Shown here piece by piece: positions 173-12,038 of a DNA stretch of 34,034 bases. The DNA lies in contig BQKZ01000103.1 in the NCBI GenBank assembly GCA_036244855.1, forward strand, positions 36,456-70,489, read 5' to 3'. The stretch is from Temnopleurus reevesii. Lineage: Eukaryota > Echinodermata > Echinoidea > Temnopleuroida > Temnopleuridae. The notes beneath the pieces were generated by a model that was not told the DNA's origin, searched no databases, and was given only the letters and a program-made list of their open reading frames with translations. Both the position numbers and the translations under genes were made by a program. Position 1 is the first letter of the stretch; every line of letters starts with the position of its first letter.

Positions 173-288
173 GTGTAGCAAAGGCATTTGGAGAAGAGAT
201 TGTACCACACCCGGACCTTGTGAAGATCTGTAGAGATTACTTTGGTGCTGATAGCTCCATGGACTCACCTCAACTCAAAATGGCTTTG
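173..288 (+). CDS. FLAD1: FLAD1 exon A (copy 1, used)
   Basis: The acceptor ag is at 171-172 after a T-rich stretch and the donor gtaaga is at 289. The exon starts with two bases completing a split Gly codon, then reads VAKAFGEEIVPHPDLVKICR and on to LKMAL, ending in phase 0. It belongs to the molybdopterin-binding-like domain. It is the only one of four copies with the full 5' part and a proper acceptor. Confidence 0.88.

Positions 289-12038: not shown

Follow-up and report, generated by a model that had tools for sequence, protein, structure and literature searches.

The window (the whole 34,034-nt stretch that was analysed, C103:36456-70489) contains, at positions 173-12038, a gene predicted to code for FLAD1, the FAD synthase that makes FAD. 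Its ten exons, designated A to J, are joined by script into a single open frame with AG/GT borders:

173-288, plus strand: exon A
1639-1779, plus strand: exon B
2272-2423, plus strand: exon C
4643-4731, plus strand: exon D
5501-5713, plus strand: exon E
6858-6966, plus strand: exon F
7903-8004, plus strand: exon G
8945-9066, plus strand: exon H
10328-10469, plus strand: exon I
11888-12038, plus strand: exon J

The deduced product, of 444 residues, contains the Pfam domains FLAD1_M and PAPS_reduct; its best match is the FAD synthase of the sea urchin Lytechinus pictus, with 81 % identity over the whole query, and it is 70 % identical to that of Diadema setosum. The sequence for the N-terminal part (before ca. 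residue 122, Lytechinus numbering) was not found in the window, and the exon for residues 50-87 is situated on another contig (C2729:75047-75160), so that the gene is split in this assembly. A search of the assembly (558 Mb in 10,433 contigs) found a single FLAD1 locus.

Several repeated sequences were also seen in the window. A stretch of ca. 408 bases in the intron between exons E and F (6406-6813) is 98-99 % identical to at least 39 other places in the genome among the matches listed, 40 of 6,891 candidates having been scored, and is likely a young mobile element. Possible mobile elements are also an inverted repeat with 182-base arms that are 98.9 % alike (13914-14420), and a 406-base inverted pair with 93 % likeness, its members situated 4 kb apart (19397-19802 and 23673-24078). 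Noncoding tandem arrays with periods of ca. 209 and ca. 161 bases occupy 26428-27133 and 27210-27765, respectively. Positions 26014-26043 hold what we take to be the Nextera transposase adapter and its reverse, followed by N; this adapter-like sequence is likely an assembly remnant.

Local copies of FLAD1 exons

Self-comparison of the window identified 20 local direct copies beside seven of the ten FLAD1 exons (three of A, two of B, eight of C, two of D, one of F, two of H and two of J), the weakest pair of exon and copy having an E value of 4e-12 in self-BLAST; no local copies of exons E, G and I were found in this comparison. These are the numbers and places given in a preliminary description of this DNA, which counted each exon together with its copies (A four times, B twice plus a partial, C nine times, D three, F two, H three and J three times). 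The copies are:

402-470, plus strand: A2, copy of exon A, truncated at the 5′ side, GT donor retained
544-611, plus strand: A3, copy of exon A, truncated at the 5′ side, GT donor present but altered (gttag)
666-729, plus strand: A4, copy of exon A, truncated at the 5′ side, donor retained, four silent and no replacement changes
1329-1435, plus strand: B1, upstream of exon B, acceptor retained, lacking the 3′ part and donor, internal 9-base deletion
1928-1985, plus strand: B3, copy of exon B, truncated at the 5′ side, decayed, donor present
2437-3263, plus strand: C2-C8, seven further 120-base units, each comprising exon C's 3′ part, its donor and a little intron, no acceptor
3472-3575, plus strand: C9, copy of exon C, truncated at the 5′ side, decayed, separate from the C array
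4898-4962, plus strand: D2, exon D copy with both AG and GT, shortened by 24 bases, contains a stop
5119-5206, plus strand: D3, exon D copy with both AG and GT, shortened by one base
7042-7100, plus strand: F2, copy of exon F, truncated at the 5′ side, donor present
9173-9232, plus strand: H2, copy of exon H, truncated at the 5′ side, internal deletion, donor present
9377-9434, plus strand: H3, copy of exon H, truncated at the 5′ side, donor present, chance AG just before
11210-11307, plus strand: J1, upstream of exon J, truncated at the 3′ side, acceptor AG changed to AA
11447-11544, plus strand: J2, upstream of exon J, truncated at the 3′ side, acceptor retained, three silent and no replacement changes

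As had been proposed before, the copying was separate for each exon, and every copy lies near its parent and includes some flanking intron. The order of the families (A A A A B B C and so on), with each family next to its parent, and the single FLAD1 locus led us to reject a whole-gene or segmental duplication; an origin as retrocopies was rejected because the copies include intron.

The copies are truncated according to a simple rule. The 15 copies downstream of their exon (A2-A4, B3, C2-C9, F2, H2 and H3) lack its 5′ part and retain a GT donor, whereas the three upstream copies (B1, J1 and J2) lack its 3′ part. One end is therefore missing in 18 of the 20 copies, and the near-complete D2 and D3 have damaged frames; none of the 20 is an intact exon, nor does any combine completeness, both splice sites and an open frame, as mutually exclusive exons require. 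One-sided truncation is what is expected from tandem duplication with breakpoints in the exon and the neighbouring intron. The sequence AGATCTACAT stands before each C unit and again within exon C, at 2315, and reading these units past the donor leads, as judged by eye, immediately to a stop. Units C3, C5 and C8 differ from each other by only one or two changes, and C9 is diverged; this comparison covers the C array. Just before D2 there is a run of G with one N (4853-4882), a possible sequencing or joining artefact.

All seven duplicated segments fell on exons in only 5 of 200,000 random placements, using a Monte Carlo procedure whose template and lengths were set by hand. A circular-shift test, in which the copies themselves are counted as background, was not significant (ca. 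0.09 with repeats masked, and 0.33 and 0.20 unmasked).

Exon copies in other genes of the assembly

Tandem or near-tandem copies of part of an exon and the adjoining intron are present in FLAD1 and also in other genes of this assembly. Three Pfam families, used as queries, yielded 235 exon-level matches (39 for chaperonin, 70 for myosin and 126 for kinesin), and local copies occurred at 13 or more of 213 exon clusters in these genes, a lower bound since only 65 of 201 myosin and 122 of 217 kinesin candidates were scored. Among the 22 copies from the three families, 11 are upstream and truncated at the 3′ side, five are downstream and truncated at the 5′ side, one is contrary and the remaining five are not truncated by eight residues or more; the rule seen in FLAD1 is thus followed by 16 of the 17 truncated copies. 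By DNA comparison, tandem arrays were found with three units each on contigs C1774 and C2665, five each on C31 and in a kinesin gene of C142, and six, identified by pattern, in a myosin gene of C3849. The same comparison gave no exon copies at four kinesin loci (18 exons), picked because they appeared free of copies in the table, or at one chaperonin locus (seven exons).

Exon copying is consequently not peculiar to FLAD1, but FLAD1 is an outlier: protein searches detected copies at 4 of its 11 exon clusters (E up to 0.001) versus 13 of 213 in the other families (one-sided Fisher p 0.0055, post hoc). The loci other than FLAD1 were detected by protein similarity, which biases them to conserved copies; those in FLAD1, on C2665 and some units elsewhere were found by DNA. 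The suggestion that a gene treated in this way has no precedent must be restricted accordingly, because other genes here and the lancelet arrays discussed below have the same structure; what stands is that FLAD1, with seven of ten exons affected, is extreme.

The neighbouring gene in the window, on the minus strand (18402-19094 and 22620-24234), has exon copies as well: one acidic coding exon occurs twice, and an exon starting with MADTQPVEEIETG is present in five versions; the ratio of silent to replacement changes between these versions is mixed, from 13:2 to 4:13. A myosin region (C3849:22940-30977) and a kinesin region (C1850:99666-102424) contain exon matches with the same score and the same range, 7.8 and 2.5 kb apart, respectively, which are either larger local duplications or assembly duplications. 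One chaperonin locus (C47:196900-203700) contains six examples of an element of ca. 90 bases, 81-94 % alike, situated away from the matched chaperonin exons.

Silent and replacement divergence

Truncated copies should drift like introns, and a divergence biased to silent changes is unexpected. Pooled over 23 exon families, chosen for having copies, divergence between copy and exon was 0.046 per replacement site and 0.339 per silent site, with an omega of 0.137, and omega was below 0.5 in 22 of the 23, the exception being B3 (0.68). The count leaves out the neighbouring gene of the window and the remnant on contig C903 described below, represents the C array by C3 and C9 only, splits exon B into B1 and B3, uses homology bounds set by hand, enters the myosin gene of C3849 as the six units found by pattern, and treats, by choice, the first unit of C31 as the exon; codons in which either sequence has a stop were dropped, here and in the ten further arrays mentioned below.

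The bias is also apparent among the units of an array. Replacement divergence is about tenfold below silent divergence over all unit pairs both on C3849 (0.033 versus 0.32, with 0.30 in the adjacent intron) and on C31 (0.026 versus 0.28, with 0.30 in the adjacent intron); in these two arrays the silent sites have diverged as much as the intron beside them. C2 and C3 differ by nine silent and no replacement changes. Omega between copies was 0.16 for 19 non-independent pairs, ten of them from the C array, and 0.31 in ten further arrays. There is little or no suppression of replacements in the pairs A2-A3, B1-B3, D2-D3 and H2-H3; B3, C9, D3 and H2 are decayed, and the last three have many replacement changes.

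The intron flanks behave differently from the silent sites. Aligned flanks, pooled over families, have a divergence of 0.193, below the 0.339 of silent sites, and short identical flanks are found beside exon parts rich in silent changes, both in the C units and in the 331 copy of contig C1774 (0 of 28). Local alignment trims diverged flanks, which may account in part for the low flank divergence, but not for the identical flanks of C and of the C1774 331 copy.

Two allele-like contigs (C903 and C4964, loci L032-L035), which may be alleles or paralogs, carry versions of one chaperonin gene that differ by ca. 4 % over 1.8 kb. Their proteins are near-identical; one exon differs by 13 silent and no replacement changes, and its intron flanks are strongly diverged. 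On one of the two contigs there is, by eye, an apparent truncated remnant of this exon upstream of it.

Origin and persistence of the copies

The FLAD1 arrays resemble the mirages of lancelets (amphioxus), which are described as tandem duplications of an exon-intron boundary in the globin genes BflGb6 and BflGb9 and in Adh3 (PMC3087553), and also in TnC, with imperfect similar repeats in PGBD5 (PMC3902484); variation in unit number and normal splicing are reported for them (PMC3087553, PMC3902484). As far as these descriptions go, both systems consist of minisatellite-like tandem repeats over an exon-intron boundary, at either border and beside a complete working exon, with units of similar length (150-160 bases in BflGb6 and 120 in FLAD1 C) and with homogenised inner units and diverged array ends, here seen in the C array. 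Given these partial copies of exon and intron at both borders and the homogenised inner C units, the FLAD1 arrays are classed, from their sequence, as mirages. They differ from those of lancelets in that the host is an echinoid and not a cephalochordate, and in that seven of the ten exons of one gene are affected. Among the papers listed from the open-licence literature there was no report of mirages in echinoderms, the descriptions found there being from lancelets (PMC3087553, PMC3902484). Internal or tandem gene duplication as a source of introns (PMC4974935; also PMC3087553) likewise involves tandem duplication within a gene and splice signals; in FLAD1, by contrast, no new intron or exon is shown and the ten exons read as a normal gene.

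The structure is therefore already known, and the new part is the excess of silent change, measured here in 23 families and not discussed in the available text of the two lancelet accounts (PMC3087553, PMC3902484), together with the rotation of units that we propose for it. An unusual local mutational process, one of the possibilities raised in the preliminary description, is the best reading of the arrays. In our proposal, each duplication would have had one end within the exon and the other in adjacent intron. The outcome would be an entire exon, with its acceptor and donor, next to a half exon; the latter would be passed over in splicing and tolerated for that reason. Later unequal crossing-over would make units alternate in forming the edge of the working exon; a replacement change acquired by a unit in reserve would be purged once that unit moved there, while silent and intronic changes would persist. 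We consider that there is about an even chance that tandem duplication over exon-intron borders produced the damaged copies of FLAD1 and that they are kept protein-like in this way, by unequal exchange that moves them through the working position. More tentatively, and with the balance somewhat against it, exon edges in this genome might each be a small rotating population instead of a fixed sequence. Half exons outside all splicing would conform to the protein code because unequal exchange in the germ line regularly carries them into the working exon, and selection would thereby extend to DNA that does not itself yield protein.

Unequal exchange in these arrays is proposed from the divergence pattern and a toy model. 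Arrays were simulated within a lineage under regimes of no exchange, swapping, one-way conversion and random copying; over 25 settings the ratio lay between 0.44 and 1.02, and these values indicate that selection in a population is needed; one-way conversion from exon to copy, with a simulated ratio of 0.44 to 0.98, was rejected. In the toy population model, units swap with the working position, where a replacement change is lethal, and each setting was run four times. Where exchange per unit was highest, in two of the settings, omega fell to 0.21 and 0.00; the other six gave 0.47 to 0.99. Within this model, exchange that returns reserve units to use can thus explain the signature, provided that population size multiplied by the per-unit exchange rate is ca. 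6 or higher. Both the identical flanks and the flank divergence below that of silent sites count against rotation, which gives no account of the former; so do the decayed copies B3, C9, D3 and H2 and the four pairs with little or no suppression of replacements.

The silent differences could instead be old, if unequal crossing-over joined the exon edges of two diverged alleles and seeded the arrays without any ongoing rotation. The J2, A4 and C1774 331 copies, with almost only silent changes, agree with such an origin, as do contigs C903 and C4964, allele-like and ca. 4 % apart, yet with one exon that differs by 13 silent and no replacement changes. These contigs may nevertheless be paralogs, there are more than two types per array, and the pooled silent divergence (0.34) is far above the 4 % between the allele-like contigs outside that exon; we hold this origin to be unlikely. 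Copies that had simply drifted, dead since birth and without exchange, should have an omega of ca. 0.5 or more against the exon, and the omega of B3 (0.68) and the many replacement changes of C9, D3 and H2 are of this kind. With 22 of 23 families below 0.5 and a pooled value of 0.137, we reject such drift for most families, and as a general explanation it is highly improbable.

Haplotype fragments or gap filling in the assembly of a highly polymorphic animal, which looks to be based on short reads, might also produce extra exons, and repeated assembly error had been suggested before. False duplications are common in assemblies, where they too place extra gene pieces beside real ones (PMC9516828); the adapter-like sequence (26014-26042) and the poly-G run with N just before D2 agree with such an artefact, and near-identical units such as C3-C8 are hard to resolve with short reads. 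A false duplication of two haplotypes would have at most two allele-like versions; several arrays here have 3 to 9 units, there are more than two diverged types per array, and the pooled silent divergence is 0.34 versus ca. 4 % between the allele-like contigs. Furthermore, the C units have one common short junction, the same truncation rule occurs in several unrelated genes, and between FLAD1 exons and copies there is N only near D2. Assembly error is thus improbable as the main cause; the number of units in the near-identical C array is uncertain, and the D2 region after the poly-G and N may be affected.

Mutually exclusive exons of the Dscam type are known as complete exons that change the protein. 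Most FLAD1 copies, in contrast, are half exons, and the protein that they encode is nearly the same, which leaves little to choose between; the likeness to Dscam is that exon copies lie side by side within one gene (PMC1397879). It had also been put forward that the copies could be a reservoir of alternative exons; they would then replace the working exon in splicing and be under coding selection, and the mainly silent divergence is as in coding sequence. The missing exon end of 18 of the 20 copies, the damaged frames of D2 and D3, and the C units, with no acceptor and a stop at once past the donor (by eye), tell against such a reservoir, to which we assign very little probability.

If units do rotate through the working exon, recombination would expose unexpressed coding fragments to purifying selection, whose signature, silent divergence with few replacements in unusable copies, would be searchable in any mirage array. 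Half exons of this type can be mispredicted as real exons and are a hazard for annotation. FLAD1, with seven of ten exons affected, offers a compact test locus. Mirages would extend from lancelets to an echinoderm, and the idea that they are widespread among highly polymorphic marine invertebrates would become testable.
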